The notes under the pieces were generated by a model. It saw only the letters and a list, made by a program, of their open reading frames with translations, did not search any database and was not told where the DNA came from. Both the position numbers and the translations under genes were made by a program. Positions 3,762-25,135 of a DNA stretch of 64,000 nt are shown here, in pieces (positions within the stretch are counted from its first letter, which is position 1; every line of letters starts with the position of its first letter). Origin of the DNA: Sorangium aterium (lineage in GTDB: Bacteria > Myxococcota_A > Polyangia > Polyangiales > Polyangiaceae); the NCBI RefSeq assembly GCF_028368935.1, contig NZ_JAQNDK010000004.1:1550001-1614000 (forward strand). Reading direction: 5' to 3'.

Positions 3762-6700
3762 GTGGACTCGAAGCAATTCATCACTACCGGTATTCAGCTT
3801 GCGTCCGCGCTCGCAGAGCTCCACGAGAGAAACATCATTCACCAGAACATCTGCCCGCAGAACATCGTCGGAGGCGGCGAGGGCGGAGCGGTGAAGCTGC
3901 GCGAGCCGACGTCTGGCGCGCGCCGCAAGGGTCTTCGAAGCCGAAGCGACGAGCTCAGCGTCTCTGCCGAGATGTTCCCGTACATGGCGCCCGAGCAGAC
4001 GGGGCGCATGAACCGGCCGGTCGACCACCGCGCGGACCTCTACTCCCTCGGCGTCACCTTCTACGAGATGCTGTCCGGCGAGCTTCCGTTGGTCGCCATG
4101 GACGTCCTCGAGTGGGTTCATTGCCACGTCGCCAGGGCTCCGCGCCCTCTCACCGAGGCGGCCCCGGGCGTGCCGCCGGTGATCGCCGCCATCGTGATGA
4201 AGCTCCTGGCCAAGGAGGCGGACGATCGCTACCAGAGCGCGCGGGGGCTCGCGCTCGATCTCGAGCACTGTCTGGCCGAGCTCGAGGCCAAGGCGACCAT
4301 CGAGCCCTTTCGCCTCGGGGCGAAGGATGTGTGGGACGAGCTGCGCTTCCCGGCGAAGCTGTATGGCAGAGAGGCGGACTGTGCGCGACTCCTGGCGGCC
4401 TTCGAGCGAGTGGTCGCGGACGGCGTGGCCGCGCTCGCGCTCGTCTCCGGGTACTCGGGGATCGGGAAATCGTCGCTGGTTCACGAGGTTCACCGGCCTA
4501 TCGTCCGCGAGCGGGGCTTCTTCCTCCAGGGCAAATTCGACCAGTACAAGCGGGACGTCCCCTATTTCACGATCAGCCAGGCGTTCCGGGAGCTGACCCG
4601 TCAGATTCTGAGCGCGAACGAGGCGCAGCTCGGCGCGTGGAAGCGGCAGCTCCTCGATGCGCTCGGCGCGAACGCAAAGCTGATCGTCGATATCATCCCG
4701 CAGGTGGAGCTCCTCATCGGCAAGCAGCCCGACGTCGCGCCGCTGCCGAGCACGGAGGCGCAGAACCGCTTCCATGCAGTGTTCCGGAGCTTCATCGGCG
4801 TCTTCGCCCAGCGCGAGCACCCGCTGGCGCTCTTCCTCGATGATCTTCAATGGGCGGACTTCGCGAGCCTCAAGCTCCTCGAGCACGTCATCACTCACCC
4901 TGAGACGCGGCATCTCCTTGTTATCGTCGCGTACCGCGATAACGAGGTCGGCCCGTCGCATGCCCTGACGACGACGGTGGACGCGATCCGGAGCGCGAAG
5001 GCACGCGTCACCGAGTTCTCGCTCGGACCCCTGTCGCTCGCGAGCTTGACCGAGCTTGTCGCCGACACCTTCCGCTGTTCTCCTGCCCGCGCCGCGCAGC
5101 TCGCGGAGCTCCTGAACCGGAAGACCGCCGGCAATCCGTTCTTCGCGACGCAGTTTCTGGGCGAGCTCTACCGCGAGGGGCTCGTCGGCTTCCGGGGCCC
5201 GGTGGTCGGGTGGATCTGGGATGTCGACGCGATCAGCGCGAAGAACTACACGGAGAACGTCGTCGAGCTCCTCGTGGGCAAGCTCTTGCGCCTGCCCGAG
5301 CAGACGCAGGCCTCGATGAAGCTCGCGGCGTGCATCGGCAACGAGCTCAGCGACGACGTCCTCGCGATGATCTGCGGCAAGTCGCTGGAGGAGACGCGCG
5401 CCGACCTCGAGCCCGCCGTCAGCGAAGGGTTCCTGCTGAGCAGGCGGGACGGCTACAAGTTCCTGCATGACCGCGTTCAACAGGCCGCTTATACGCTCAT
5501 CCCCGAGGAGACGCGCGGCGAGGTGCACCTCAAGATCGGGCGGCTGCTCCTCGAGAGGGCAAAGAAGGAGGAGCTCGCGGAGAAGATCTTCGATATTGTC
5601 AACCAGATAAACCTCGGCGCCTCGCTCATCGGCGGCGTCGAGGAGAAGACTCGCTTCGCTGAGCTCAATCTGATGGCGGGAAAGAGGGCCAAGGCGTCCT
5701 CGGCGTACCGCTCGGCAGTGAATTACCTGTCCGCCGCGTCCTCGCTCCTCTCGGAGGAGAGCTGGGACACCCACTACGCGCTCACGCGCGAGCTCCACAC
5801 GGAGCTCGCGGAGTGCTTGTTCCTGAGCGGCAACCTGGACGATGCGGAGCGGGAGTGCGCAAACGTCGATCGTGCCCGGACCAAGCTCGACAAGGCGACC
5901 TTCTATCGGCTTCGAATGCAGATCTGCCTCGCGCGGGGGGAGAACGACAAAGGCATCGGCCTCTGTATCGAGTGTGTGGGGCTCTTTGGCGTCGAGCTCC
6001 GCACGAAGCCTGAGAAGGAGGTGGTGCTCGCAGAGCTTCAGAAGGTGCGCGACCTCGTCAAGGGCCGCCGTATCGAGGATCTGCTCGATCTGCCCGTGAT
6101 GACGGATCCGGAGATGGCCTCCACGATGAGCACGCTGGCGTGGATCTACCCTTCGGCGTTCTACGTCGATCCGAGCTTCACGGATCTCGTGGTGGGCACG
6201 ATGGTGAGGCTCAGCGTGCTGCACGGCAACGCTCCGGCGTCGACCATGGGGTACGCGTCGTTCGGGGCGGCGCTCTGCGCAAAGTTCGCCGCGTACCAGG
6301 AGGGCTACGAGTTTGGCAAGCTCGCGTGCGACCTCACGGAGAGGCACGGGTTCATCGCGTTCAAGCCGGAGGTCTTCCAGACGCACGCCTGTCTGATCTG
6401 CATCTGGACCCAGCACGTGCGTATGCAGGTCGAATACGCTCATATTGGCTTCGTGACGGGCCGCGAGCTCGGGAACTCGGCGTACGCCTGCTTCAACCTC
6501 CTGCAATACGTCTTTGGAATGCTCGTCCGCGGAGACTCGCTGGAGTCCGTGCACGCCGCGGCCGTGAGCAGCGCCGACTTCATCATCAACGCGAAGATGA
6601 CCTTCGCGGCCGACGTCATGATAAGCGTCCAGCGCTTGACGCTGGCCATGCGCGGGCTGACGGACCGCCTCGGGACGTTCAGCGGCGGCGATTTCGTCGA

Positions 6701-8753
6701 GGCAGATTATGAGAAGCACCTCGCCGCCGAGAACATCCCGCTCGTCCATTTCTTCTACCAGGTGAACAAGCTCCAGGCGCGGTTCATCGCGGGCGAATAC
6801 GAGGAGGCGGAGGCCGCGGGCGAGGCGGCGAAGGGGCTCCTCTGGACGGCCACCGCGGAGACCATCCTGGTCCACGAGTATTATTACTATGCGGCCCTCT
6901 GCGCGGCGGCCCTCTACAAACACGCCACGATCGAGAAGCAGAAGGAGCTCCGCGAGCGCCTCGCCGCGAGCGAGGCGAGGCTGCGTGTGTGGGCCGAGAG
7001 CTGCCCCGCGAACTTCCTCGGCACGCACGCCCTGGTCTCCGCGGAGATCGCGCGTATCGAGGGCAGAGACGGAGACGCGGCGAAGCTCTATGACAAGTCC
7101 ATCCGCGCCTTCCGCGAGGGCGGCTTTGCGCAGAACGAAGGCGTGAGCTCCGAGCTCGCGGCGCGGTACTATATCGACCGAGAATTCGATCTTCTCCCGT
7201 CCATGTACCTCGCGGGGGCCGAGGCCTGCTTCACGCGCTGGGGCGCCCAAGGCAAGGTGCTTCAGCTCGGCCGGATGTACGCCCCGCATTTCGCGCATAA
7301 GGACGCGCCGATCTCCCCGGCGGCCCATGGCAGCGCGGACACGAGCTCGGAGCAGCTCGACACGCTCGCGGCGGTGAAGGTATCCCAGGCGCTCTCGAGC
7401 GAAATGGGGCCCGACAAGCTCCTGGCGACGCTCATGCGCATCGTCATCGAGCACGCAGGCGCGCAGAAGGCGTGCCTGTTCACGCCCGAGGGAGAGGGCT
7501 TCGCGCTCGTGGCAGAGGCCCGAGTGGATCATCGTGAGACCAACGTCCGGGTGGTCGGGCGCGAGGAGGACGCGAGCGTCAGCGTATCCGATTTCCCGGC
7601 GTCGGTGCTCAACTACGTGAAGCGCAGCCGGGAGAAGGTCACCCTGGACGACGCAGCGAAGGACAGCGCGTTCTCGTCCGATGAGTACATCGTCCGCGCG
7701 AGGCCGCGCTCGCTGCTCTGCATGCCGATCTTCCGGCGGGGCGCGCTGGCCGGCCTCCTCTACCTGGAGAACAGGCTCGCCGCGGGGGTGTTCACGCCTC
7801 GACGGCTCGTGTTGCTCGAGTTCATGGCGTCGGTGTCGATCGAGAACGCGACGCTACACGCGGAGTTCGCCCAGGAGAACGCAGATCGAAAGCTGGCCCA
7901 GGCGACGCTGCGGCAAAGCGAGGATCGCCTTCGGAGGCTGGTCGAGACGGCGAGCGTCATCCCCTGGGAGGCCGATCGCACGGCCGCACGGTTCACCTAC
8001 GTCGGCCCGCAGGTCGTGAAGATGTTCGGGTACCCACAGGACACGTGGTATGACGCCGGCTTCCTGGGCGAGCACGTACATCCGGAGGATCGCGAGCGGG
8101 TCCTTCCCCGCTTCCTCCAGAGGGACGCGGTCGGCGCTGACGACGATTTCGAGTTCCGCTTGCGAGCGGCGGACGGGCGGGTCGTATGGCTGCACAACGT
8201 CGTGAGCTCGACGGCGGGCGAGGATGGCAAGATGGCGCTCGGCGGCTTCCTCTTCGACGTCACGGAGCGCAAAGAGACCGAGGCGACGCTGGCGGAGAAG
8301 CTGGCCATCATCCAGGACCAGCAGGCCGCCATTCAGCAACTGTCGACGCCTATCATCGAGGTATGGGAGGGCGTGCTGTCGATGCCTGTATTCGGCTCGA
8401 TCGACACGCACCGCGCCGAGCAGATGATGGATGTCCTCCTCAACGCCGTCGTCCGCACGTCCTGCCGCTATGTCATCATCGATCTGACCGGCGTCGATAA
8501 GGTCGACGCGAGCACGGCCGACCATCTCATCAGGCTCATCCGCGCGGTGCAGCTCGTCGGATCGAAGGGCATCTTGGTGGGGATCCGGCCCGAGGTGGCG
8601 CGCACCGTCGTGTCCATCGGCGTCGATCTATCGTCGTTCATCACGCTGGGGAACCTGCGTGAGGGGCTGCTCTTCTGCATGAGGCATCACGGGCTCGCGG
8701 TCGGGCGGATCCCGTCCGCGTCCTCTGCTGGGCAGCACTCGAATCGAGGGTGA
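3762..8753 (+). CDS. Giant AAA-ATPase/GAF/PAS/STAS signalling protein with a truncated pseudokinase N-terminus
   Basis: 1663 aa, GTG start with GAGG a few bases before it and an in-frame stop at 3753-3755, so the frame cannot extend upstream. Residues 1-180 match only the C-lobe of a Hanks kinase: the glycine loop and lysine strand are missing, the catalytic loop reads HQNICPQN in place of HRDxKPxN, and no DFG is visible, although the MAPEQ and DLYSLG segments remain. An AAA/STAND-type ATPase follows (Walker A GYSGIGKS near 229, Walker B LFLDD near 356), then a long TPR-like helical region (600-1180), GAF (about 1215-1370), PAS (1385-1500) and an RsbR-type STAS domain (1515-1645). Full-length relatives combine kinase, ATPase and sensor histidine kinase; here a STAS domain replaces the histidine kinase. 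It probably signals by nucleotide-dependent assembly and STAS contacts rather than by phosphorylation. Confidence 0.88.
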   Translation: MDSKQFITTGIQLASALAELHERNIIHQNICPQNIVGGGEGGAVKLREPTSGARRKGLRSRSDELSVSAEMFPYMAPEQTGRMNRPVDHRADLYSLGVTFYEMLSGELPLVAMDVLEWVHCHVARAPRPLTEAAPGVPPVIAAIVMKLLAKEADDRYQSARGLALDLEHCLAELEAKATIEPFRLGAKDVWDELRFPAKLYGREADCARLLAAFERVVADGVAALALVSGYSGIGKSSLVHEVHRPIVRERGFFLQGKFDQYKRDVPYFTISQAFRELTRQILSANEAQLGAWKRQLLDALGANAKLIVDIIPQVELLIGKQPDVAPLPSTEAQNRFHAVFRSFIGVFAQREHPLALFLDDLQWADFASLKLLEHVITHPETRHLLVIVAYRDNEVGPSHALTTTVDAIRSAKARVTEFSLGPLSLASLTELVADTFRCSPARAAQLAELLNRKTAGNPFFATQFLGELYREGLVGFRGPVVGWIWDVDAISAKNYTENVVELLVGKLLRLPEQTQASMKLAACIGNELSDDVLAMICGKSLEETRADLEPAVSEGFLLSRRDGYKFLHDRVQQAAYTLIPEETRGEVHLKIGRLLLERAKKEELAEKIFDIVNQINLGASLIGGVEEKTRFAELNLMAGKRAKASSAYRSAVNYLSAASSLLSEESWDTHYALTRELHTELAECLFLSGNLDDAERECANVDRARTKLDKATFYRLRMQICLARGENDKGIGLCIECVGLFGVELRTKPEKEVVLAELQKVRDLVKGRRIEDLLDLPVMTDPEMASTMSTLAWIYPSAFYVDPSFTDLVVGTMVRLSVLHGNAPASTMGYASFGAALCAKFAAYQEGYEFGKLACDLTERHGFIAFKPEVFQTHACLICIWTQHVRMQVEYAHIGFVTGRELGNSAYACFNLLQYVFGMLVRGDSLESVHAAAVSSADFIINAKMTFAADVMISVQRLTLAMRGLTDRLGTFSGGDFVEADYEKHLAAENIPLVHFFYQVNKLQARFIAGEYEEAEAAGEAAKGLLWTATAETILVHEYYYYAALCAAALYKHATIEKQKELRERLAASEARLRVWAESCPANFLGTHALVSAEIARIEGRDGDAAKLYDKSIRAFREGGFAQNEGVSSELAARYYIDREFDLLPSMYLAGAEACFTRWGAQGKVLQLGRMYAPHFAHKDAPISPAAHGSADTSSEQLDTLAAVKVSQALSSEMGPDKLLATLMRIVIEHAGAQKACLFTPEGEGFALVAEARVDHRETNVRVVGREEDASVSVSDFPASVLNYVKRSREKVTLDDAAKDSAFSSDEYIVRARPRSLLCMPIFRRGALAGLLYLENRLAAGVFTPRRLVLLEFMASVSIENATLHAEFAQENADRKLAQATLRQSEDRLRRLVETASVIPWEADRTAARFTYVGPQVVKMFGYPQDTWYDAGFLGEHVHPEDRERVLPRFLQRDAVGADDDFEFRLRAADGRVVWLHNVVSSTAGEDGKMALGGFLFDVTERKETEATLAEKLAIIQDQQAAIQQLSTPIIEVWEGVLSMPVFGSIDTHRAEQMMDVLLNAVVRTSCRYVIIDLTGVDKVDASTADHLIRLIRAVQLVGSKGILVGIRPEVARTVVSIGVDLSSFITLGNLREGLLFCMRHHGLAVGRIPSASSAGQHSNRG

Positions 8754-10510: not shown

Positions 10511-12013
10511 CTACGTGAGCGCGGGGCGGGCGTCGTGGGGGCCCGCCTCGCCGGCAGGCGCCGGCTGGTTGCGCTCCAGCGCCTCGATGCGCCCGAGGAA
10601 CGCGCGCCCTTTGACCGGATCCGTCATGTACACGAACGCCGCGAGCCCCTTGAGCTGCGCGAGCGTCTCGCCCTTGCCTGGCCTCCCGAGCTCCCGGTTG
10701 CGGATCGCCGCGCGCAGCGCGCGCACCCGCTCGCGCGGGACGCGCGCCGCCGGCGCCGCCTCGTCCGCCTGGTTGACGACGAGGCCTGTCACCTTCTGCC
10801 GGCTGCCCTTGCGCATCACGACGGTCTTGCTCGGATGCAGCCGGAAGCCCTCCGAGCTCAGGATCTCCCGGAGCCCGCGGAGCAGCGCGCCCACCGGCGC
10901 GCGCGGCCGCGCGGCGCCGGCGAGGGCGGGCGCCTCGGGCGCGCGGAAGGAGAACGTGAGATCGTCGGCATACCGCGTGTAACGAAGCCCCAGCTTGCGC
11001 GCGAGGCCGGACGCGCGCCGATCGAGCCGCAGGCAGATCGCGTTCGTGATCGCCGGGGAGGTGGGCGCGCCCTGCGGGAGCACGCGCGGGCCCGTGGCCA
11101 CATAGAGCGTCTGCCCTCGGAACTGCACGACGTCCCGCGGCGCCTCCGTCGAGAGGAGCGCCACGAGCGTCGCGGGACCCTCGGCCACACCCGCCTTGCG
11201 GAGCAGGCCGCGCACGCGCCGCCACGTGATCGTCGGGAAGAAGTCCTTGATATCCACCTTGACGATCGTGTCGGCGCCGGCGTGCGCGGCGGCGTTCGTG
11301 ACGATGGATCGGCTCGCCAGGAAGCCGTGCGCCGCGGCGTGGACCGGCAGCTTCTCGAACAGGTTGCGGAGCGCCCAGCGCTGCGCGCGCTTGAGATCCC
11401 GCTTGGGCGACGAGATGGTGCGCGCGCTGCCGTCGCGCTTCGGGATGTGCCACCGCCGGTAATGGGTGCCCGTGTCGACCTCGCGGTGATACGCGAGCCA
11501 GCGGAGCCGCGGGATCGACAGCCCCAGCGCGGTCGCGAGCTCGGCCGCGCCCGGCAGGTCGGGGAGGCCGTGCGCCCGCGCGCGCTCGCTCAGCCCAGGC
11601 ACGTCGAGCCTGTCCGGCCCGACGCGGTCGCTCCAGTGCACGCCCGCGCCAAGGTGGTTGACGTGCGTGGCGACGTAGGCCTCCCAGGCCAGGCGGCGCA
11701 GCGAGCGGCGCTCCCTGGCCTCGACCTTCTTGCGCTCCTTCCACTGCGCGCGCTCCCGGTCGGACATCGCCTTGGGATCGCCGGTCGCGACGGCGCCCTT
11801 CGCCGTGAGCTCCGCGCTCACCCACGCGTCGATCCCGCCCGCCTCGTCGATCGCCTTCCAGCGGGCGACGCGCTCCTCGTGGGCGAGCCGGCGCGCTTCC
11901 ACGCCGCCGGCGGCTTGAAAGCGCGCCGCCGCGCCGCCGGGGGCAGGCGGCGTCGTGATGGGGAGAACGACGGGGGCTCGGGCTTGAACGGTCGCGTCGA
12001 TCTTCGCGGTCAT
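10511..12013 (-). CDS. ret: Retron reverse transcriptase
   Basis: 500 aa, ATG start at 12013. The RT core follows an N-terminal extension of about 170 residues. Seen motifs: NAAAH just before DIKDFFPTI (the NAxxH motif typical of retron RTs), LPQGAPTSP, the active site YADD (codons at 10961-10972), and VTGLVVN (the retron VTG motif). Length and the N-terminal extension resemble the Mx162-type enzymes of myxobacteria. It reads the msr-msd RNA encoded just upstream on the same strand (12098-12360), priming from a branching guanosine to make a branched RNA-DNA (msDNA). Retrons are known to act as anti-phage systems when paired with an effector. No separate toxin gene follows here; only a hydrolase remnant lies downstream. 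Confidence 0.93.
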   Translation of the reverse strand: MTAKIDATVQARAPVVLPITTPPAPGGAAARFQAAGGVEARRLAHEERVARWKAIDEAGGIDAWVSAELTAKGAVATGDPKAMSDRERAQWKERKKVEARERRSLRRLAWEAYVATHVNHLGAGVHWSDRVGPDRLDVPGLSERARAHGLPDLPGAAELATALGLSIPRLRWLAYHREVDTGTHYRRWHIPKRDGSARTISSPKRDLKRAQRWALRNLFEKLPVHAAAHGFLASRSIVTNAAAHAGADTIVKVDIKDFFPTITWRRVRGLLRKAGVAEGPATLVALLSTEAPRDVVQFRGQTLYVATGPRVLPQGAPTSPAITNAICLRLDRRASGLARKLGLRYTRYADDLTFSFRAPEAPALAGAARPRAPVGALLRGLREILSSEGFRLHPSKTVVMRKGSRQKVTGLVVNQADEAAPAARVPRERVRALRAAIRNRELGRPGKGETLAQLKGLAAFVYMTDPVKGRAFLGRIEALERNQPAPAGEAGPHDARPALT

Positions 12014-12097
12014 GTCTCTACGGGAGCGTGGTGGTGAGTCACGATGGGAGCGATTCGGTCCCGAGGACGCCGGACCGTCGATCGCTGTCTCATGTCG

Positions 12098-12110
12098 CCA
12101 AGAGAGGTTC
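12098..12110 (-). repeat. Retron inverted repeat a2
   Basis: CCAAGAGAGGTTC on the + strand; as RNA it pairs with a1 at 12348-12360 over all 13 positions if one G-U pair is allowed. Confidence 0.85.
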
Positions 12111-12140
12111 CAAGCGCATCACCTTCATCGCTTGGTGCAC

Positions 12141-12268
12141 GGTAGCCTCACCGGTTCTCCGGCTAGACGAGCCCTACGGCGTCGGGAGAAACGGCGTTTG
12201 CGAGGTTGTCTCAGCTCTCCCGACGCCGTAGGGCTCGTCTAGCCGAAGAGAACCAAGAACAGGCTACC
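12141..12268 (-). repeat. msd long hairpin (30-bp perfect stem plus lower stems)
   Basis: The inner stem is perfect over 30 bp (12160-12189 with 12216-12245) around a 26-nt loop. Below it are a 7-bp stem (GGTTCTC 12153-12159 with GAGAACC 12248-12254, 2-nt bulge) and an 8-bp stem (GGTAGCCT 12141-12148 with AGGCTACC 12261-12268). This is the part copied into single-stranded DNA. Confidence 0.92.
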
Positions 12269-12347
12269 TTGCGGAGAGTGACTGGCGGTTCCTCCAGAGC
12301 GGCGCGACGCCGCTCCTGCGCTCGAGGCGCGGAGGCTGGTGCGTTCA

Positions 12348-12360
12348 GAACCTCTCCTGG
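12348..12360 (-). repeat. Retron inverted repeat a1
   Basis: GAACCTCTCCTGG on the + strand, complementary to a2 (12098-12110) except for one position that forms G-U in RNA. It marks the 5' end of the retron RNA, about 40 bp after the stop codon of the SWIM gene on the same strand. Confidence 0.85.
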
Positions 12361-12400
12361 CAACACGAACAGTCTCTTTTTCTTGCCCTCCTTCCCATTC

Positions 12401-14287
12401 TCATGCTGACGACGCGTCGGCGTCCACGAACCCAGAGGACGTCAACGCATCCAATCTCTTGAAATACGCGTCGCGCGCTTCGCCGTCCGTGTCAAACCAA
12501 ATGCGCTGGTGTCGAGGCGCTTCGGCGCGCGCCCCCCACGACAGGTGTACTACGCGCTCGTCCAGGGAGACACGGTAGACGACCTCCGCGCCCGAGGCCT
12601 CGCGGCGCACGTACGTGCGCGTCTCCGCGCGGATGAGCGACCGCCCCTCGGCCGTCTGGCGCAAGGCGTCCCGCTCGGCGCGCTCGCGGGCGTAGGCGAC
12701 GCGGAGCGCGATCATGTGCTCGCACGGACCTTCGCGGAGGCCGCTCCGGCGGAACGTGGGGCAGCTGCACCACGCGTCGGAGACGCGGCCCTCGAGATCC
12801 ATCGTGAACCGCGGCGCGAAGTCGCGGTGCGCCTCCCGGTCCGCGACCTCCCCGTGGATCTCGGTGCCCTCGCCGGCGATCTCGTGCACCTTGGTCGGCC
12901 TCACCGCGCCGGGCGCGCCGAGCAGGCGGTGGGCCGCGGCCTCGCGGGGCGAGCTGTAGCGGATGTCGCGCTCGTCCACCGGATCGGCGAACAGCTCGCG
13001 CGGGCGGTAGACGCGGCGCGCGACGTCGTAGAGCACCCGGCCGCGCAGGCACTCGAGCTGGAGCGCCGCGCGGGCGTCCTCGGCGCCTCCGCCGGCCGCG
13101 AGCGAGGCGAGCGGGAGCGGCCCCCGCTCGCGGAGGAGGGCGAGCTGCCTGCCCGCGAGCGCGTCGAGCGCCGCGCGCGCCTTGTCGCCGCCTTTCCCCT
13201 CGCGAGGCATCAGGGCGTCGAACGAGGCGGCGCTGGCCCAGCTGCTGTCGGTCCAGCCCGTGAGCGCGATCGTCAGCGTCGCGCGGCCCAGATCGAGCAC
13301 CCAGAAGACAGGCAGCCCGGGGCCTCGGAGCTCGGCGCGCACGCGCTGCACGTGCGGCAGGAGCCGCGACAGCGCGAGCAGCCGCTGCCGGCCGAAGGTC
13401 CGGACCACGCGCGGCGGACCCTCGTACGGAGGGCCGTGGCCCTCGATCAAGATCTCCCAGGGCTCCAGGATGAGGCGCGGCGGCTTGCCGGGGACGAGCT
13501 CGAAGCGCAGGCCGCGGGGCGGCTTCTTCGCCTTGCGGGTGCGGAGCACGAACAGCGCGTTGTAGAGATCGATCGGCGCGAGCTCGCACGAGACGGCGGG
13601 GAGCGTCGCCGCCGACTGCACCTGCAGGAAGCCGCGGAGCCAGGTCGTCGGGACCTCCAGCGAGCGCTCGATCGGCGTGGCGCCCGCCGCGGCGTCTCCG
13701 CGCGAAGCGCCCGCGTCGAGCTCCACCTTCGCGTAGGCGCGGAGGCGATCGATCTGCTCGACGATGCGCGGCGAGAGATCGACGAAGGCGGTGCCGTGGG
13801 CCGCTTCGCGGCCCTCGAAGAGGTCGCTGGAGAAGGCGAGCCGGGCGTAGGCGCTCTCGTCGCGGGAGAAGACCTCGATCGAGACCTCGTCCGGGTGCAC
13901 CGTGAGCACGGGATCGAGCGCGCCGGAGACCCTCGGCTTCGCGGCGGCGCCGTCGCCCTGGCCCGCCGCGTCGTCGGGGAAGGCGCCCTCCAGGAACGCC
14001 TTCTGGGCCTCCCAGATGGCCGCCGTCGCCTTCTTGCCCTGCTTCATCAGGTAGGCGAGGTACGCGGTCCGATCCCGGCCCTTGTACCGGAGATCGCTCT
14101 CCAGGATGGTCGCCAGCGCGGCCATCGCGTCGCGGAAGAGCGCCGCGTCGCGGACGGTGCCGCGCACGCCGACCGGGCCGCGGGCGCCGTCGAGCGAGAG
14201 GCGCACGCTCGAGTGGAGCGGGGAGGCGGCGAGCTCGCTCGGCGCGGCGTACCGGAGGAGGATCGGGCGGGCGAGTGCGGCCGTCAT
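12401..14287 (-). CDS. SWIM zinc-finger protein with a C-terminal WGR-like domain
   Basis: 628 aa; its ATG overlaps the stop of the upstream WD40-HEAT gene as ATGA, so translation is probably coupled. A SWIM finger is visible near 505-530 (WCSCPTF, then PCEH: CxC...CxH), a fold used for DNA or protein contacts. The last 80 residues look like a WGR domain (LSWGARAE, then a helical stretch EARDAYFKRLDALTSSGF), as in the separate WGR protein at the head of the cluster. The first 500 residues are not recognised. SWIM proteins of the E. coli YehQ kind occur beside WGR and MoxR genes. It probably joins the HEAT and WD40 proteins in one complex; its target is unknown. Confidence 0.85.
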   Translation of the reverse strand: MTAALARPILLRYAAPSELAASPLHSSVRLSLDGARGPVGVRGTVRDAALFRDAMAALATILESDLRYKGRDRTAYLAYLMKQGKKATAAIWEAQKAFLEGAFPDDAAGQGDGAAAKPRVSGALDPVLTVHPDEVSIEVFSRDESAYARLAFSSDLFEGREAAHGTAFVDLSPRIVEQIDRLRAYAKVELDAGASRGDAAAGATPIERSLEVPTTWLRGFLQVQSAATLPAVSCELAPIDLYNALFVLRTRKAKKPPRGLRFELVPGKPPRLILEPWEILIEGHGPPYEGPPRVVRTFGRQRLLALSRLLPHVQRVRAELRGPGLPVFWVLDLGRATLTIALTGWTDSSWASAASFDALMPREGKGGDKARAALDALAGRQLALLRERGPLPLASLAAGGGAEDARAALQLECLRGRVLYDVARRVYRPRELFADPVDERDIRYSSPREAAAHRLLGAPGAVRPTKVHEIAGEGTEIHGEVADREAHRDFAPRFTMDLEGRVSDAWCSCPTFRRSGLREGPCEHMIALRVAYARERAERDALRQTAEGRSLIRAETRTYVRREASGAEVVYRVSLDERVVHLSWGARAEAPRHQRIWFDTDGEARDAYFKRLDALTSSGFVDADASSA

Positions 14288-17200
14288 GCGTTGACTCCTT
14301 CGGGGGTCTCGGGCTCTCTGGAGGAGCGCGCGGACGCGAGCCGCGCCGCGCGAGGATCCGCTGCCTTGCGCTTCGCGCGGCGGTACGCTCGGTACGCGGC
14401 CTTGCGGACGGCGACGTCGGCCTTCTCCTTGGCCTTCTCCTTGCCGAACGCGAGCGCGGCCAGCGCCTCGAGCGCGCGCTCGCCGCCGGCGCGGCCGAGC
14501 GCCGCGATCGCGTCGAGGCGCGCGGAGGCGTCCCCGCCGCTGCCCTGCGCGAGCGAGATCAGCGGGGCGAGCGCGGCGACGTCGCGGCGCGCGAGCATCG
14601 CCGGCAGCGCGAGGCGCCGGCCCGGCTCGGTCGCGGCGAGCGCCGCGAGCGCCTCGGGCGAGGCGACGCGCGCGGTCGGTCCGAAGGCGACCGGGTCGAA
14701 CGGCTTCACCGCCGCAGCGATCGCGGCCGAGCCGTCCGGCGCGAGCGCGGCGAGCGCGGCGGACGCCGAGGCCCGGACGCCGGCGTCCATGTCCTTGAGG
14801 GCCGCCGTGAGCGCCTCCACGGCGCCCGCGGGCGGCGCGGCCCCTGCGGACCTCGCGGCCGACTCGAGCGCGCCGAGGGCGCGCGCGGCCTCGCGGCGGA
14901 CCTCGCCGGGAGCGCCGTCGTTCGAGAGGAGCGCGCGCAGCGCGGGCGCCATCGCGGTCGCGCCGGCGCGCCCCGCGGCCCAGAGGAGCTCGCGCCACGC
15001 CGCGGCCTCGGCGCTGCGCTCGTCGCCGTGCGCGGCCGACCAGCGCTCCGCGGTGCGCTGCGCCGCGGCGGCGAGCGCGCCCGCGAGGGCCCCGCGATCG
15101 CCGGCCACGGTGCCGGCGGCGATGAGCCGCGCGGCCTCCTGCCGCGCCGGGGCGCGCTCGTCCTCGAGCATGCGCAGGAGCGCGGCCACCGGCAGCGCGC
15201 CGCGGCGGAGCAGGCCCATGGCGAGGCGCTGCCGCAGGTTCCCGTCCTTGAGCGCCGCGAGCCGGGGCAAGAGCTCGGCCGGGTCGGCCTCCGCGGCGAG
15301 GTAGCTCGCCGCCGGGCCGGCGATGTCGTCGTGCTGGCTCCCGACCGCGAGGAGCTCGACGCGCGTCCGCTCGCCAGGGAAGAGCTTCTCCAGCGCCTTG
15401 CGCGCGTTCTTGCGGACCTCGCTGTTCCGCGCGTCGAGCGCGCGGGCGAGCGCGGGCTCGGCCGCGCCGTCGCCGAGCAGGCCGAGCTCGTTCACCGCGA
15501 CGACGCGGAGCCTGTCGGGCGTGTCGCCGGCGCGCACCAGCTCTTCGAGAAGCACCCGGACGCGCTCGCCGCCGAGCCAGCGCACGCCCTTCGCCGCCGA
15601 CTCACGGAGATCGACGGAGTCCGCGTGGAGCGCCTGCTCGACGCGCTCCGAGGCGCGCTTGCGGAGCTCGGCGCTCCCCAGCTTCTGGGCGATGCGGCCG
15701 AGCGCCTCCGTGGCGGCGGCCTGCATGCTCGGCTCGATGGGCGCTTCTTTTGTGCCGCCGGCGGCCACCGCCTCGAGCTCCTCCAGCGCGCGGGCGTCGC
15801 CGAGCGTGCCGAGCGCGAGCAGCGCGCGCTCGCGCTCCCCGGGCTCGCCCGCGCGCACGACGAGGAGGAGCGGCCGGAGCGCTGACGCGAGGCCCCGCTC
15901 GGCCACCCCCTCCGCGGCGGGCAGCACGAGCTCGCGCGCGCCCGCGCGAAGCACGGCCTCGAGCGGCCCGGAGGGCGCGCCCTTGTCCTTGACGCGCTTC
16001 GCGTACGACGTCACGGCCGCGACGCGCGTGGGGAGATCGCGATCCGCGAAGAGCGCGACCAGGAGGTCGTTCTGCGCGGGATCGTCGCCGAGATCGAGCT
16101 CGCGCGCCGCGGCGAGGCGGAGCGCCGGGTCCTTCGCGCGCGTGGCGGCGGCGAGGAACGCGAGCGCGAGCGCCGTCTCGCGCTTCTCGCGCTCGCGCCC
16201 CTTGTCGACGATCTCGAGGCACGCCTTGAGCGCGGCGCTCCGGACCTCGGCCGCCTCGTCGTCGAAGCGCGCCGCGAGCGGGCCGGTGGCCGCGGGGTTC
16301 CGCGTGCTCCCGAGCGCGCCCGCCAGCGCGGCGCGGTCCGCCGGCGTGGCGGCCTCATCCATGCGCGCCGCGAGCGCCTGCACCGCCGCGTCGCTCGCGA
16401 GCGCGACGAGCGCCTTGCGCGCGCGCGCCGCCGACGCGGTCGCGCTCTCGCGCAGGAACGCCGAGAGCACGTCGACCGCACGATCGTCGCGGCTGCGGGC
16501 GAGGAGCTCCGCAGCGCGCAGGCGCAGGTCGTCGTGATCGCTCTCCATCGCGCGGCACAGGGCGGGCACGATGCGAGGATCGCTCGACGACGCGAGGCGC
16601 TCGAGCACGCCGAGGCGCAGGTCGGCGTGCTCGCTGCCGAGCGCCGCGAGGAGCGGATCGAGGCTGCCCTTCGGCGAGAGCCGCTCCAGGAGCTCGAAGG
16701 CGTAGCGGCGCACGTCGGGCAGCGCGGAGCTCAGCGCGCGCACGATCTCGGGGCGGGCGTCGCCGCCCCGCGCGGCGATCTCGTCGAGCGCGGTCCGCGC
16801 CACGTCGGCCGACGCCGACGCCAGCCCGAGCGCGAGCGGCTCGCCCGCCCCCGCAGGGAAGAGCGCCTTGAGCCCGGCGAACGCCGCCTTGCGCACGAGG
16901 TGGTGCGGGTCGTCGAGCGCCCGGACGAGCGGCGGGACCGCCGCCGTGCTGCTGACGTGCCCCTTGGCGCAGACGTCGACGATGCGGTCGATGGCGTCGC
17001 GGCGCGTGCGGTGCGCCTCGTCGTCGCCCGCCGAGACCTGCCGGAGGAGGCCCATGTACGCGCCGAACGCGAGCCAGCGCAGCCGCCGCTGCTCGCCCTC
17101 CGGGACCGCGTCGCCGGCCGGCTTGTCGCCCTGCTTCTGGCCGCTCTGCCCGGTCGGCTCGGGCTGCGCGAAGAGGCGGCGGAGCCACCCCTTCGCGGGC

Positions 17201-20200
17201 TTCGTGTCGCTCTCCTCCGCGGCGCGCGGGGTCGTGTCCGCCACGACGTGGGCGCCCGCGGGGCGCAGCGCGGCCACGCGCTTCGCCTCGCGGAAGTAGT
17301 CGACCGGCTTGCGCCGGATGCGGAGCACCTGCGCGGCTGCGTAGCGCTGCTGCGGGTCGTCGCTGGCGAGCGCCTCGGCGAGGCCGACGAGGATGCGCCC
17401 GCGCGCGACCTCGGGCGGCCAGTCCTTCATGCCGGCGGGCTTCTCTCCGTCGGCCGCGCGGCCCTGCTCCGCCGCGTCGGGGCGCGGGGGCATCAGCGCC
17501 TCGATGAGGTGGGCGAGGTACGCCTCCGGATCGGTGCGGAGCTCCAGCGCGCGCGCCGCGGCGAAGCGCACGTCGGAGCGCTGCGACGAGAGCGCGCTCG
17601 TCAGGAGGTCCGGCGGGTCGCCGCGGCGGAACGCCCTGAGGTCGCGCGCGAGCACGATCGCGAAGACGATCTCCTGGACCTCGCGCGAGCTGTCCTCGAG
17701 GCCCTGCAGCATGCCGCCGTAGCCCTCGGGCCCGAGCGCCGCGAACGACATGATCGTCGCGACGCGGATGGGCGGGTGATCGTGGCGCAGCGTGCCCGTG
17801 AGCACCGGCAGCGCCCGCACGTCGCCGAGCCGCGCGAGCCCGTCGGCGGCCCACGACCGCACCGCGACGTCGGCGTGGCCCATGGCGTCGAGCAGGTAGC
17901 CCTCCTCGCCGCGGCGGGCGGCCATCGCGAGCCCGCGCGCGGCCTGCTCGCGCACGTCGGGGTACTCGTCCTTGAGGAGCTCGGTGGCGAAGTACTTGAC
18001 GAGGCGCGGCGAGCCGAGCGTCGCCAGCGCGGTCGCGGCGCGGGCGCGCAGCGGGCCGAGGACCTGGATCGGCAGCTGCTTGAAGAGGGATTGATCGGCG
18101 AGGAGCGCCCGCATCGGGTTGAGCAGCTGCTCGTCGCGCCGGACGGCGCAGAGCTCGGCCGCGCGCACCCGGAGGTCGAGGTGGCTCGACTGGAGGCCGA
18201 CGTGGAGCGGCCCCGCCTCGCCTGGCAGCAGCTTGTCGAGCGCCTCGATCGCCGCGATGCGCGGCCCCGCGTGCTCGTCCTCGAGCAGCTTGCTCAGGGC
18301 GCTGCGCGCGGCCTCGCCCACCGGCACGCGCGTGGCGAGCAGCCGGAGCAGGGCGTTGCGCGCGTCGTCGCCCGCCGGCATGTGCGCGGCCCCGCGCGCG
18401 CCGCTCTCCCGGACCGAGGGGTGGATCGACGCCATGGCGGCGAGGTGCGGCTCCGCGGCCTCCTTGCCGCGCAGCTTGACGACCGCGTCGTACGCGGCCT
18501 GGGCCACGCTCGCGTCGCGGTCGCCGATGGCCGCGTGCAGCCGCTCCGCGGCCCACGGCTGCTCGCCGTGCGCCTTGAGCTCCTCGACGGCGCGCAGGCG
18601 CAGGTCGGGGAAGCGCGCGAGCTGCGCGCGGTCGAGCGCCGTCTGCGGATCCGAGGTGTGCCACGACCAGAGCGTCCGGAACGCCTCGCGGCGGACCTTG
18701 GGCGACTCGTCCTCGATCGCGTCGGCGAGCAGCGCCTCGGCCTCGGGCGGCCTCGGCCCCTTGCCCTCGCCGGCGAGCGCCACGAGCCGGTCGAGCCCGC
18801 GGACGCGGATGTCCTCCTGCGACGAGCGCAGCGACGCCTCGGCCACGACGAGCGGGGCCGACGACTCCAGCCGCGCGTAGGCGTCGAGCGCCGCGGCGCG
18901 CACCGCGCCGTCCGCGTCGTCGAGCATCCAGATGAGCCGCTTCTCGGCGCGGGTGTCCCGGAGCTCGGCAAGCGCGGTCGCCGCCTGCCTTCGCAGCGAC
19001 GGGTCCTGCTCGCGCGTGAGCTGCAGCAGCGCGCCGAGGGCGCGCGTGTCGCCGAGCTGCGCGAGGCCGCGCGCGCCCCGCACCGCCGTGTCCGGCGTGC
19101 GGCAGGCCATCGCGGTGAGCAGCGGCTCGAGGTCGGCCTCGGCGGGCTCGGCCCCCGGGCTCCCCACGCCGGGGATCCGGGCGCGCGCCGCCTTGATGGC
19201 CGCCTCGTCCGCGGCCTTCGCGCCGTCCTTCGCCCCATCCTTCGCGTTCGCCGCGGGCTTCTCCGCGCCGCCCGCGCCGGCGCGCCGCAGGACCTCGGCC
19301 GCGCGCCGCGCGATGTCGATCGCCGCGCGGCCTAGATCCTCGTCGCGCGCCTCGAGCGCGTGGGCGAGCGCCCGACGCTCGATCACCTTCGCCGCGAACG
19401 CGATGCGGCGCACCTCGGCGTCCTCGTCGTCGAGCGCGCGCGCCGCGATCGGCGCGAACTCCGGCGCCGAGAGCCAGCCGGCGAGCGCGGCCCGGATGAG
19501 CGCCTCGACCCGGAGGTCGGCCGGGCCGCGCTCGAAGGCGGCGCGGAGCGGCTGCGGGCCGTCCGGGTGGATCTTCTGGAGCTGGTCGAGCGCCGTGAGC
19601 CGCACCGACGCGTCGCGGCCAGCGAGCTTCTCGGCGATGAGCCCCGGGATGAGCGGCGAGCTGCCGTAGAGCCTCCCGAGCTCGAGGAGCGCCCGGCGCT
19701 GGACGTCCGCGGCGCGGGCGCCGAGCGCTGCCCGGAGCGGGGCGAGCGGCGTGTCGCGCTCGATCGCGCGGAGCGCCTCGAGCGCGGCCATGCGGACGTT
19801 CGGGCTCTCGTCGTCGAGCGCCTCGCGCAGCTTCGCGCGCGCGCCGCGGCGCCCTCTCTCCCCGAGCTCGCGGGCGGCGAGCGCGCGCACCTCGGCATCG
19901 CGGTCCGACCGGAGCACGGGGAGCGCGGCCTCGAGCGCCTCGGGCTCGTCGAGCGAGGCGAGCGTCTTGACGGCGCTCTCGCGGGCCGGTCGCGCGCCCG
20001 AGAGCGCCTGGGCGAGGACATCGAAGCCGTGCGCGAGCTCTGCGGTGCCGTCCGCGGGCACGCCGGCGGCGTCGATCGGGAAGCGCCATACCGTGCGCCG
20101 GTCCCCTGCGGCGAAGACGGCGCCGAGCCCGTCCTTCGCGTCCGCCCCGCCGCGGGCGGCCTGCCCGCGCGCGCCTTTGCGCGCGGCGGCCGGCGCGAGC

Positions 20201-21138
20201 GCGAGCGCGTGCAGCGGCAGCGCGCTCGTCTCCAGCGTGCGCGGCTTGCGCTTGTCCTCGAGCCGGTGGATGCGGATCGCGCCGTCCGCGCCTGCGGACA
20301 GCAGGCGGTCGCCGCTCTCCTTGCCGTCTTCCTGCGGCGGCGGGGTGGGCAGGCACAGGAGCGCGCGGACGCCGCCCGCGTGGCCGCTCCCGTCCGCGCC
20401 GCGCACCTCGCACTCGACGTCGCCGACGAGGTACCAGAGGCGCACGGTGCCGTCGTCGCCGCCCGAGGCCAGCCGCCCGTCGCGCGGCGTGAACGCGAGC
20501 GCCGTGACCGGTCCGTCGTGGCCGGGCATGTTGCGGACGGCGCCCGTCGACAGCGTGACCACGCGGACGACGCCGTCGTCGCCTGCCGCGGCGCAGAGCT
20601 CCCCGGCAGGATCGAAGGCGACGGCGCGGAGCGGCGCCGCCGAGAGCGCGAACGACGAGATCTCGACCGCGGCGCCGGGCTGCGGGGCAGGGGATCCGGC
20701 GCCCTCGCCGACACGGAACACCCGCAGCGCGCCGTCGACCCCCACGGTCGCGAGGCGCGCGCCGGCGTTGAGCGACACGCCCGCGGCGATCGCCGTGGCG
20801 CCGCCCGGGTGCGCGTCGATCGCCCGCCCGTCGGCCCCGCCGCCCGCGAGGAGGCGCAGCGCGCCGTCGGAGCACGCCGCCGCGAGCAGGTCGCCCGCGA
20901 ACGCGAGGCCCAGCACGTGCGCGGGCACGTCGATCGAGCGAACCGGCTTGTTCGCCACGTGATCGAACAGCGTCACCTGGCTCGCGCCGGCGGGGGATCG
21001 CGTGGTCTGCGTCTCGCGCGTCTCGCGCGTCCCGCCCGCATCGCTCGGCGCCGGCGCGCGCACGCCGCCGACCGCGAGGAGCCGCGGGCCGATCGCGAGC
21101 GCGCGGACCTTCTCGTAATGGCCGATCGCGTGGCTCAT
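14284..21138 (-). CDS. Giant WD40-HEAT repeat scaffold protein
   Basis: 2284 aa. The ATG at 21138 overlaps the stop of the upstream HEAT gene (ATGA); longer starts would run into that gene. Residues 1 to about 400 form WD40-like blades (for example GHDGPVTALAFTPRDGRLAS, then DDGTVRLW). The rest is almost wholly HEAT/PBS-lyase-type helical repeats, each with an EVR or DVR-like turn (DAEVRALAARELG and many more), giving an extended solenoid of roughly 1850 residues with a Lys/Ala/Asp-rich linker near 650-690. There is no catalytic motif, signal peptide or membrane segment, so it should be a cytoplasmic scaffold. It is much longer than ordinary bacterial HEAT proteins and is the largest product in the window. 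Confidence 0.9.
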   Translation of the reverse strand: MSHAIGHYEKVRALAIGPRLLAVGGVRAPAPSDAGGTRETRETQTTRSPAGASQVTLFDHVANKPVRSIDVPAHVLGLAFAGDLLAAACSDGALRLLAGGGADGRAIDAHPGGATAIAAGVSLNAGARLATVGVDGALRVFRVGEGAGSPAPQPGAAVEISSFALSAAPLRAVAFDPAGELCAAAGDDGVVRVVTLSTGAVRNMPGHDGPVTALAFTPRDGRLASGGDDGTVRLWYLVGDVECEVRGADGSGHAGGVRALLCLPTPPPQEDGKESGDRLLSAGADGAIRIHRLEDKRKPRTLETSALPLHALALAPAAARKGARGQAARGGADAKDGLGAVFAAGDRRTVWRFPIDAAGVPADGTAELAHGFDVLAQALSGARPARESAVKTLASLDEPEALEAALPVLRSDRDAEVRALAARELGERGRRGARAKLREALDDESPNVRMAALEALRAIERDTPLAPLRAALGARAADVQRRALLELGRLYGSSPLIPGLIAEKLAGRDASVRLTALDQLQKIHPDGPQPLRAAFERGPADLRVEALIRAALAGWLSAPEFAPIAARALDDEDAEVRRIAFAAKVIERRALAHALEARDEDLGRAAIDIARRAAEVLRRAGAGGAEKPAANAKDGAKDGAKAADEAAIKAARARIPGVGSPGAEPAEADLEPLLTAMACRTPDTAVRGARGLAQLGDTRALGALLQLTREQDPSLRRQAATALAELRDTRAEKRLIWMLDDADGAVRAAALDAYARLESSAPLVVAEASLRSSQEDIRVRGLDRLVALAGEGKGPRPPEAEALLADAIEDESPKVRREAFRTLWSWHTSDPQTALDRAQLARFPDLRLRAVEELKAHGEQPWAAERLHAAIGDRDASVAQAAYDAVVKLRGKEAAEPHLAAMASIHPSVRESGARGAAHMPAGDDARNALLRLLATRVPVGEAARSALSKLLEDEHAGPRIAAIEALDKLLPGEAGPLHVGLQSSHLDLRVRAAELCAVRRDEQLLNPMRALLADQSLFKQLPIQVLGPLRARAATALATLGSPRLVKYFATELLKDEYPDVREQAARGLAMAARRGEEGYLLDAMGHADVAVRSWAADGLARLGDVRALPVLTGTLRHDHPPIRVATIMSFAALGPEGYGGMLQGLEDSSREVQEIVFAIVLARDLRAFRRGDPPDLLTSALSSQRSDVRFAAARALELRTDPEAYLAHLIEALMPPRPDAAEQGRAADGEKPAGMKDWPPEVARGRILVGLAEALASDDPQQRYAAAQVLRIRRKPVDYFREAKRVAALRPAGAHVVADTTPRAAEESDTKPAKGWLRRLFAQPEPTGQSGQKQGDKPAGDAVPEGEQRRLRWLAFGAYMGLLRQVSAGDDEAHRTRRDAIDRIVDVCAKGHVSSTAAVPPLVRALDDPHHLVRKAAFAGLKALFPAGAGEPLALGLASASADVARTALDEIAARGGDARPEIVRALSSALPDVRRYAFELLERLSPKGSLDPLLAALGSEHADLRLGVLERLASSSDPRIVPALCRAMESDHDDLRLRAAELLARSRDDRAVDVLSAFLRESATASAARARKALVALASDAAVQALAARMDEAATPADRAALAGALGSTRNPAATGPLAARFDDEAAEVRSAALKACLEIVDKGREREKRETALALAFLAAATRAKDPALRLAAARELDLGDDPAQNDLLVALFADRDLPTRVAAVTSYAKRVKDKGAPSGPLEAVLRAGARELVLPAAEGVAERGLASALRPLLLVVRAGEPGERERALLALGTLGDARALEELEAVAAGGTKEAPIEPSMQAAATEALGRIAQKLGSAELRKRASERVEQALHADSVDLRESAAKGVRWLGGERVRVLLEELVRAGDTPDRLRVVAVNELGLLGDGAAEPALARALDARNSEVRKNARKALEKLFPGERTRVELLAVGSQHDDIAGPAASYLAAEADPAELLPRLAALKDGNLRQRLAMGLLRRGALPVAALLRMLEDERAPARQEAARLIAAGTVAGDRGALAGALAAAAQRTAERWSAAHGDERSAEAAAWRELLWAAGRAGATAMAPALRALLSNDGAPGEVRREAARALGALESAARSAGAAPPAGAVEALTAALKDMDAGVRASASAALAALAPDGSAAIAAAVKPFDPVAFGPTARVASPEALAALAATEPGRRLALPAMLARRDVAALAPLISLAQGSGGDASARLDAIAALGRAGGERALEALAALAFGKEKAKEKADVAVRKAAYRAYRRAKRKAADPRAARLASARSSREPETPEGVNA

Positions 21139-24232: not shown

Positions 24233-25135
24233 TCACGCCGCGCGCATCCGCGCGACCCGCTCCTCGACGTGCGGGTCGCCGCCCGCGTCGATGCCGGCGA
24301 GGAGCTCCTTCAGCGAGCGCCCGCGGTGGGCGAGGTGCGCCTCGAGGTGCGGCGAGAGCGCCTTCCAGCGCCGCGCCCACCCCGCCTCGGCGCTCATCGC
24401 GCCGTGGTGCGGCCGATCGACGAGCAGGGCGCCGAGCCGGAGGCCGAGCTCGGGATCGTCGAGCTCCTCGAGCTGCCGCTTCAGGAGGGTGAGCGCTCCG
24501 GCGGCCGGCGAGGTCGCTGGCGGGGCCTTCCAGGTGTCGCGCACCGCGCGCGCGAACGCCGCTGCGTCGAGCTCCGAGAGCAGCTCGATCGCGCGCACGA
24601 GCGGCAGGCGATCGCGCGCGCTCGGCGCGACCACGCGGGCCAGGAGCGCGTCCAGCGCGGCGGACAGCGCCCCGTCGGTCGCGGGATCGAGCCCGCCGAG
24701 CGACTCGAGCGCGCGGCGGGCGCGTCGGACGGCGCGCCCGAGCACCCAGCTCCGCCGGCCGCGCGCGGCCGAGACCGCGGCGAGCGCGTGGATGGCGGCC
24801 TTGCGCCGCGCCTCGGTGGCCTCGCCGGGCTGGACGCGCGGCGGCAGATCGAGCTTCGGCGGCGGCGGGGGCGCGGCCGCTCCGGCGGTGGCAGCGGGGG
24901 CGCCGCCGGCGGGCGCGCCGCCCCCGGCGGCGGCCACTTCCTGGTAGCCCTCCCTGAGCTTCTCCGCGACCTTCTTGTCGCACTCGCGCTGCGCGGCCTC
25001 CGCCGTGGGGAACGCCTTCTCCTTGCGTTGCCCGGCGGTCCCCAGCCGCCCGTAGACGACGATGAACGTCGTGTCGTCCACGTCGGCCATCCAGAACTTG
25101 GCGCTCGTCCCCTGCACGAACTCGAACCGGCGCAT
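24233..25135 (-). CDS. WGR-domain protein
   Basis: 300 aa. The N-terminal 65 residues are a clear WGR domain (RRFEFVQGTSAKFW at the start, YGRLGTAGQ at the centre, then the helix ending EGYQEV). WGR domains occur in PARPs, in MolR/YehF-type proteins and in nucleic-acid-linked systems, where they bind nucleic acid or partner proteins. A Pro/Ala/Gly linker (about 70-105) leads to a helical C-terminal region of unknown family. The gene lies 36 bp downstream of the DUF2288 gene and 233 bp upstream of the HEAT gene, all on one strand, which suggests a common job with the HEAT, WD40 and SWIM proteins. Confidence 0.87.
   Translation of the reverse strand: MRRFEFVQGTSAKFWMADVDDTTFIVVYGRLGTAGQRKEKAFPTAEAAQRECDKKVAEKLREGYQEVAAAGGGAPAGGAPAATAGAAAPPPPPKLDLPPRVQPGEATEARRKAAIHALAAVSAARGRRSWVLGRAVRRARRALESLGGLDPATDGALSAALDALLARVVAPSARDRLPLVRAIELLSELDAAAFARAVRDTWKAPPATSPAAGALTLLKRQLEELDDPELGLRLGALLVDRPHHGAMSAEAGWARRWKALSPHLEAHLAHRGRSLKELLAGIDAGGDPHVEERVARMRAA

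Follow-up and report, generated by a model that had tools for sequence, protein, structure and literature searches.

We know of no function for the myxobacterial retrons, the first class of these elements to have been found, and a locus of Sorangium aterium raises the question of what holds, and what makes use of, the DNA hairpin that such an element encodes. The window (the whole stretch of 64,000 nucleotides analysed here) carries on its minus strand a retron RNA with a perfectly paired 30-bp stem, followed by the gene of a retron reverse transcriptase (RT). Retron types are said to have been defined by Mestre et al. 2020, and the type names used here are those of PADLOC.

Parts of the subject are already known. 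Type XIII is established as a gene set in PADLOC, and the accessible part of PMC6868368 describes the CAGC context of the branch G, vertical inheritance and the repeated sequences of Ne160. The Sorangium retron belongs to a known type; what comparison adds is the clamp fold, a stem with a fixed length and a freely varying sequence, and ncRNAs that are unlinked and multi-copy. Type XIII is named in the accessible part of PMC11953036 merely as one PADLOC match of a Variovorax strain, and the accessible part of PMC12548924 makes no mention of it. Among the literature matches listed, which came mostly from outside subscription papers, nothing was found on a type XIII mechanism or a retron clamp, on a single RT shared by many unlinked msr-msd genes, or on a type XIII stem of fixed length and free sequence.

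The retron RNA

The first-pass annotation had proposed a complete retron RNA at 12098-12360, on the correct strand and ahead of a retron RT, and this is borne out by folding, by the profile matches of the RT and by covariation. Read on the minus strand, as are all features of the RNA and its operon, 12360-12098 has a folding energy of -169 kcal/mol, compared with -104.8 +/- 5.1 for 200 dinucleotide shuffles (z -12.5), and none of the 200 equals the native energy. The proposed limits were accurate to 3 bases: the a1/a2 stem extends to 12363/12095, placing the ncRNA at 12095-12363. In the fold of 12363-12095, the 19-nt a1 repeat (12345-12363) pairs with the a2 repeat (12113-12095) to form an outer stem of 19 bp, followed by a further 4 bp. 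The candidate priming (branch) G, G12336 in CACCAGCC, lies in a CCAG loop; it was picked out in the first annotation, and its surroundings match the CAGC context of the branch G in Mx162 and Sa163, as given in the accessible part of PMC6868368. The msr (12291-12335, defined by the fold and by alignment A2) comprises a GCGC hairpin and a 9-bp GC hairpin, both enclosed by a CCTCC/GGAGG stem, and the msd hairpin follows.

The msd core, from GGTAGCCTGTTCTTGG to CGGTGAGGCTACCG (12140-12268), is delimited by near-constant length and covariation. Its variable stem is formed by a 30-nt 5' arm (12245-12216) and a 30-nt 3' arm (12189-12160) that pair perfectly, as had been claimed, within a longer, 34-nt arm pair that is 97% complementary. 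The stem is closed by a 26-nt tip, GCTGAGACAACCTCGCAAACGCCGTT (12190-12215), similar among relatives. The DNA strand expected from template 12286-12119 folds with a z of -10. With the geometry of Mx162 (8-nt overlap, 162-nt DNA; accessible part of PMC6868368) taken as an analogy, an msDNA of about 160-168 nt is to be expected, which revises the initial estimate of 145-160 nt.

A covariance model (R1), built from 25 sequences including the window RNA, matches the window genome at this locus alone (E up to 1), and no Rfam family matches at gathering score within the window. In a simple consensus scan, neither a sigma-70-type promoter nor a terminator was found at the window ncRNA, which was counted toward transcription as part of the operon.

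The type XIII operon

In the window the gene order is WGR, HEAT-ARM, WD40-HEAT-ARM, SWIM, msr-msd and RT. The WGR-domain protein (24233-25135, 300 aa) matches Pfam WGR at E 1.1e-15 and PADLOC WGR_XIII weakly, at E 0.0011. HEAT-ARM 1 (21135-23999, 954 aa) and HEAT-ARM 2, a WD40 and HEAT/ARM repeat protein (14284-21138), match PADLOC HEAT-ARM_XIII with 1067.3 and 1337.9 bits, respectively. The SWIM protein (12401-14281, 626 aa) matches SWIM_XIII at E 1.2e-146 and has a Pfam SWIM zinc finger at residues 495-526, and the RT (10511-12013, 500 aa) matches RT_XIII at E 3.9e-147 as well as RVT_1. The NAxxH, YADD and VTG motifs reported earlier for the RT are all found, and their columns are invariant across 12 aligned rows. 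For HEAT-ARM 2, ATG 21138, which overlaps the HEAT-ARM 1 stop, is probably the start codon rather than GTG 21297: with several relatives, the alignment to the longer open reading frame begins only at residue 54 or 57; with some others it begins at residue 1. The first annotation overlooked the operon around the RNA, with its SWIM, two HEAT-repeat and WGR proteins. Elsewhere in the window, 3762-8753 on the plus strand encodes a 1663-aa protein with kinase, AAA, GAF, PAS and STAS domains.

Judged by its gene content, with adjoining RT_XIII, SWIM and HEAT-ARM genes and a WGR gene, the locus is a type XIII retron; the set of RT, SWIM, HEAT-ARM and WGR is identical to that by which PADLOC recognizes the type. 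No killing domain was recognised among the proteins of the locus. In a genome scan in which 80 of 582 loci were retained, SWIM is present in 72 and HEAT-ARM 2 in 34. Of 41 RT matches, 20 loci were tested; SWIM adjoins the RT in all 20, and HEAT-ARM 2 occurs in 8 of them. Every SWIM match among 39 relatives adjoins an RT of the type XIII kind. The kinship to Mx162 (Retron-Mxa1) and Sa163 (Retron-Sau1) suggested by the first-pass annotation holds as a likeness of described features rather than of compared sequences: the CAGC context is the same, and the Sorangium RT has a long N-terminal extension (RVT_1 from residue 190), as do the RTs of Mx162 and Sa163, two myxobacterial retrons for which vertical inheritance was assumed (accessible part of PMC6868368).

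A predicted sliding clamp

Residues of about 38-345 of the SWIM protein are predicted to adopt a PCNA-type sliding-clamp fold, and a distant SWIM protein gave the same prediction. The structure model of the window SWIM, made from 20 sequences (pLDDT 84), matches PCNA, 9-1-1 and beta clamps with a best Foldseek E of 3.5e-6 and a best VIA-align Z of 14.6 (rmsd 2.6 over 211 residues, 11% identity). A SWIM protein of Hyalangium, from the second branch, is about 34% identical to the window SWIM over the aligned part; its model was made from 24 different sequences, none common to the first alignment (pLDDT 78), and matches at Foldseek E 2.5e-10 and Z 21.4, with an rmsd of 2.8 over 234 residues of a 245-residue PCNA. 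Comparison with a viral library again returned a clamp for SWIM. By sequence, a SWIM-family profile run against solved chains picked up no clamp (E up to 1). Unlike PCNA, 9-1-1 and beta clamps, to which it is about 10% identical, SWIM carries an extra C-terminal region with the zinc finger. Sliding clamps touch DNA through helices. In the window model, six helix arginines (R50, R71, R216, R247, R298 and R300) are conserved in 20/20 rows, and R34, R181, R256, R259 and R294, which lie off the model helices, are also fully conserved. A clamp fold in common proves no function.

A stem of fixed length and free sequence

The msd was compared across 25 related ncRNAs, units whose core duplicated one already included being left out, as was the RNA of locus L034 (G005:C900). 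Changes on both sides are found in 36 of the 51 msd pairs. Cells changed on both sides number 388, against 113.9 in shuffles, and 94.7% of 1275 cells are paired, against 31-45% in slid-partner controls, a comparison that favours unslid over slid versions since the reference structure is that of the window RNA, itself one of the rows. The number of doubly changed pairs is less telling (36 versus 33.2 in shuffles, with 20/500 shuffles reaching it), and the covariation counts are not independent because the rows are related. The msr-msd of L034 is broken up by N and by a duplicated segment some 51 nt long, a probable scaffolding artefact.

G-U pairs account for 5 of 729 standard pairs (0.7%) in the variable 30-bp stem, where 21 further cells are unpaired, versus 16/190 in the basal helix and 26/214 (12%) in the msr hairpin. 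Since a constraint on the RNA should leave G-U pairs, their near absence suggests that selection acts on the DNA copy or on the hairpin in its DNA form, which is indirect evidence for the importance of reverse transcription. A motif search that reached 140 nt identified 90 units; in 87 of them the 5' and 3' msd motifs stand 100-105 nt apart, the other three being parsing errors. The msr, tip and basal motifs are conserved across phyla. The pattern of substitution suggests that the variable stem is maintained as a DNA duplex, with its length fixed and its sequence free.

Several roles for the stem sequence were considered and rejected. Stems as spacers copied from elsewhere are contradicted by the window stem, which matches only its own two arms in the genome at up to 3 mismatches; the same stem, the one examined for this purpose, has no match to its central 20 bases in viral contigs, as against the idea of viral spacers. 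Palindromes are in excess, with 52 hexamers over 53 arms (37.9 in shuffles; reached in 3/500) and 12 10-mers over 34 planctomycete arms (2.2 expected; reached in 0/1000 shuffles). Despite this excess, a reading of the stems as restriction-site baits was dropped because the window stem has zero hexamer palindromes.

Placement of the RNA

The position of the RNA relative to the RT varies. At some loci the SWIM-RT gap measures 257-736 nt and contains the ncRNA, others are almost gapless, and at four loci a gap of 110-141 nt contains a repeat. In planctomycete gaps (L068 9827-9968, L071 9810-9944, L086 6065-6179) an inverted repeat of the CACAGAG/CGCAGAG type is seen, which is probably not an ncRNA but a repeat element of the genome. 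Model R1, run on 29 whole genomes (27 with little or no gap and two with cis arrays), has matches in 26. This refutes a loss of the ncRNA in small-gap relatives: it lies outside the gap in 24 of the 27 genomes, with no match for L079, L082 and L085. At 20 of 25 small-gap loci, a perfect hairpin of at least 15 bp is absent from the fetched stretch.

In part of the genomes, the RNA sits at the operon head, about 40-50 nt upstream of HEAT-ARM 1 where the start is clear. In others it is far from the RTs matched by alignment A1, which RTs unlike A1 would escape. Minicystis rosea has its RNA at 2.75 Mb and RTs at 0.88 and 15.28 Mb, plus a third, weakly matched RT at 4.60 Mb; Nannocystis sp. RBIL2 has an RNA pair at 1.36 Mb and RTs at 3.66 and 4.59 Mb on the same contig; and N. 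poenicansa has a pair at 7.77 Mb and RTs at 10.18 and 11.15 Mb. The complete chromosomes of M. rosea and N. poenicansa are the best support for unlinked RNAs, because draft genomes can hide linkage. An RNA on a separate contig was indeed wrongly taken as unlinked for L063, where HEAT-ARM 1 follows the RNA on that contig, and linkage may be hidden likewise in other drafts. Multiple units also occur together, with two of different stems in a deltaproteobacterial MAG (L054 2200-2840) and three of different stems in Enhygromyxa salina (L060 9516-11890), two of which lie past the RT.

The tandem pairs of the two Nannocystis genomes, more than 2 Mb from the RTs matched by A1, recall by description Ne160 (Retron-Nex1 of Nannocystis), in which msr-msd is repeated with no RT nearby (accessible part of PMC6868368). 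Unlinked ncRNAs may therefore explain this RT-less retron, from which the Sorangium locus differs in having a single ncRNA adjoining its RT.

In a tree of 57 RT rows, for which the RNA position class was set from coordinates beforehand and rows without a known position were kept as unknown, the window belongs to a clade of 24 (support 96/89) whose members mostly carry the RNA between SWIM and RT. In a second clade of 24 (100/99) the RNA is at the operon head, unlinked or unknown, and a branch without HEAT-ARM 2 comprises eight rows. RNAs off the RT operon occur at several places in both clades, so that relocation of the RNA has probably happened more than once. A neighbour gene common to the unlinked copies was sought at 29 loci and rejected: only HEAT-ARM 1 reaches five genomes, at operon-heading copies, and the other neighbour clusters stem mostly from two Nannocystis species.

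Multi-copy RNAs in planctomycetes

Unlinked RNAs are most numerous in planctomycetes, where copies were counted with model R1 at E up to 1. Gemmataceae strain CJuql4 has 9 copies, one at the operon head and 8 elsewhere. The L071 genome has the RNA at 19 places (one partial, one on the RT-bearing contig), the L072 genome has 10 copies, some partial or degenerate, and the L086 genome has 8, of which 6 are strong. With stricter filters, nine of 41 genomes drawn from the family of CJuql4 were positive, with 9, 5 and 5 copies and, in six genomes, a single one.

The base, tip and length of the planctomycete units are constant. Pairing of the stem was scored in 40 units of the CJuql4, L071, L072 and L086 genomes, with an arm frame of 29 positions, one bulged base included. 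No more than 2 mismatches are seen in 34 units and 3 mismatches in 2, whereas 3 units pair poorly and 1 is not evaluable. Among the 39 evaluated units, similar arms are found only in L192 and L200, which belong to one genome (97%), and all other pairs are below 70%. This stricter recount overturned an earlier view that all planctomycete stems are perfect and unique.

A terminator-like hairpin follows within 110 nt after 27 of 31 unlinked copies, versus 13 of 531 stretches drawn at random from these loci, in a test that omitted L156, L215, L220-L222, L229, L230 and one unit of L217. None follows the operon-heading copy of CJuql4, nor, the Minicystis copy excepted, nine other listed unlinked or paired copies from other lineages. 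By eye, a promoter-like pattern common to the planctomycete copies lies upstream. From these flanking signals the dispersed msr-msd copies (L191, L192, L197-L230) look like stand-alone genes. Retron searches confined to the surroundings of an RT therefore miss part of the system where msr-msd genes are unlinked and multi-copy.

Proposed mechanism and alternatives

We infer a sequence of events that leads from operon transcription and msDNA synthesis through a clamp on the msDNA and its release to phage defence. The ncRNA would be transcribed within the long operon transcript and then fold, and the RT would copy it from the 2'-OH of G12336, yielding a branched msDNA of about 160-168 nt. This msDNA would be a rigid hairpin of DNA whose 30-bp stem is perfectly paired and whose base and tip are conserved. 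The SWIM clamp may bind or encircle its duplex, reading length and shape rather than sequence; a duplex-holding ring ignores sequence, and the ligand is constant in length, pairing, base and tip but free in stem sequence. The WGR protein is predicted to be a DNA-end-binding partner and the HEAT proteins scaffold partners of SWIM. The clamp on the msDNA would keep the complex in a resting state and, by analogy with other retrons, damage to the msDNA during phage infection would free the complex to act. This effector step is a guess, since a killing domain was recognised in no protein. That a type XIII retron copies msDNA from G12336, and that a PCNA-like SWIM clamp grips this msDNA and is released upon phage damage, appears to us reasonably probable.

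A broader generalization is put forward more tentatively, with slightly less than even confidence. Type XIII retrons may be clamp-based immune or DNA-sensing machines in which a SWIM ring, together with WGR and giant HEAT proteins, holds the msDNA as a duplex rod whose length is fixed and whose sequence is free. A single RT operon would, in several lineages, serve many unlinked msr-msd genes, each with a different duplex of about 28 bp; Sorangium would represent the one-RNA form, and a distant operon would supply the missing RT of Ne160.

The most serious alternative, although we hold it to be unlikely, is that the retron is vertically inherited and serves a cellular function, such as the sensing of DNA damage or replication, rather than phage defence. 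The ncRNA is found as one copy in each of 6/6 Sorangium genomes, the window genome included (E up to 1e-4), and the RT is 86-91% identical in all five others. The neighbouring genes are the same as far as the fetched stretches extend, with the position of WGR and HEAT-ARM 1 conserved in the three congeners whose stretch reaches there. Purifying selection acts on the RT (dN/dS 0.24-0.29 against four Sorangium genomes) and on SWIM (0.19-0.26), and in other systems WGR and clamp domains are typical of DNA repair. The presence at one place in all six Sorangium genomes is unlike a typical patchy defence gene and speaks against the defence view. Beyond Sorangium, however, the RNA is patchy, with 3 of 33 other relatives positive at E up to 1e-4, and PADLOC counts the gene set as a candidate defence type. 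Matches to the RT occur in 131 plasmid records; none of these covers 80% of its length, and identity is below 60% throughout.

A somewhat less likely proposal is that SWIM is a processivity factor acting on the RNA-DNA or DNA product of the RT, enabling long or many DNAs, with the msDNA as a primer or substrate and not as a guarded decoy. The predicted clamp fold is consistent with this idea, as is the proximity of the two genes: SWIM is the neighbour of the RT, overlapping or almost abutting it at many loci. The nearly fixed length of the msd, however, leaves no evident long product, and other retron RTs work without a clamp. Finally, a decaying or inert element, its hairpin perfect only via template switching between the arms, is very improbable: arm-to-arm copying could explain the near absence of G-U intermediates, and some planctomycete copies are poorly paired, but the dN/dS values of RT and SWIM are well below 1, the msr, tip and basal motifs are conserved across phyla, and most unlinked copies remain well paired.

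To return to a clamp that grips the msDNA, a sliding clamp would account for a stem that is fixed in length yet free in sequence, and a clamp encoded in the operon offers a concrete biochemical handle, with predictions that are testable with purified protein. The unlinked msr-msd genes provide a possible solution to the puzzle of Ne160 and its missing RT, and a clamp partner together with scattered hairpin genes may help to explain the purpose of msDNAs.

Further observations

The window genome has a second type XIII-like retron, at 847770-848963 of contig C6 (locus L046 13764-17970), with an RT 44% identical to that of the window. It has its own SWIM gene and no match to HEAT-ARM 2, and its gap contains, by eye, a different hairpin RNA that model R1 does not match. 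Short motifs also recur in the RTs, namely (G/S)FW(D/N)..K near the start (L042-L047, L050) and KKKWWKLF at the C-terminus (L040, L049). These could be clamp-docking peptides.
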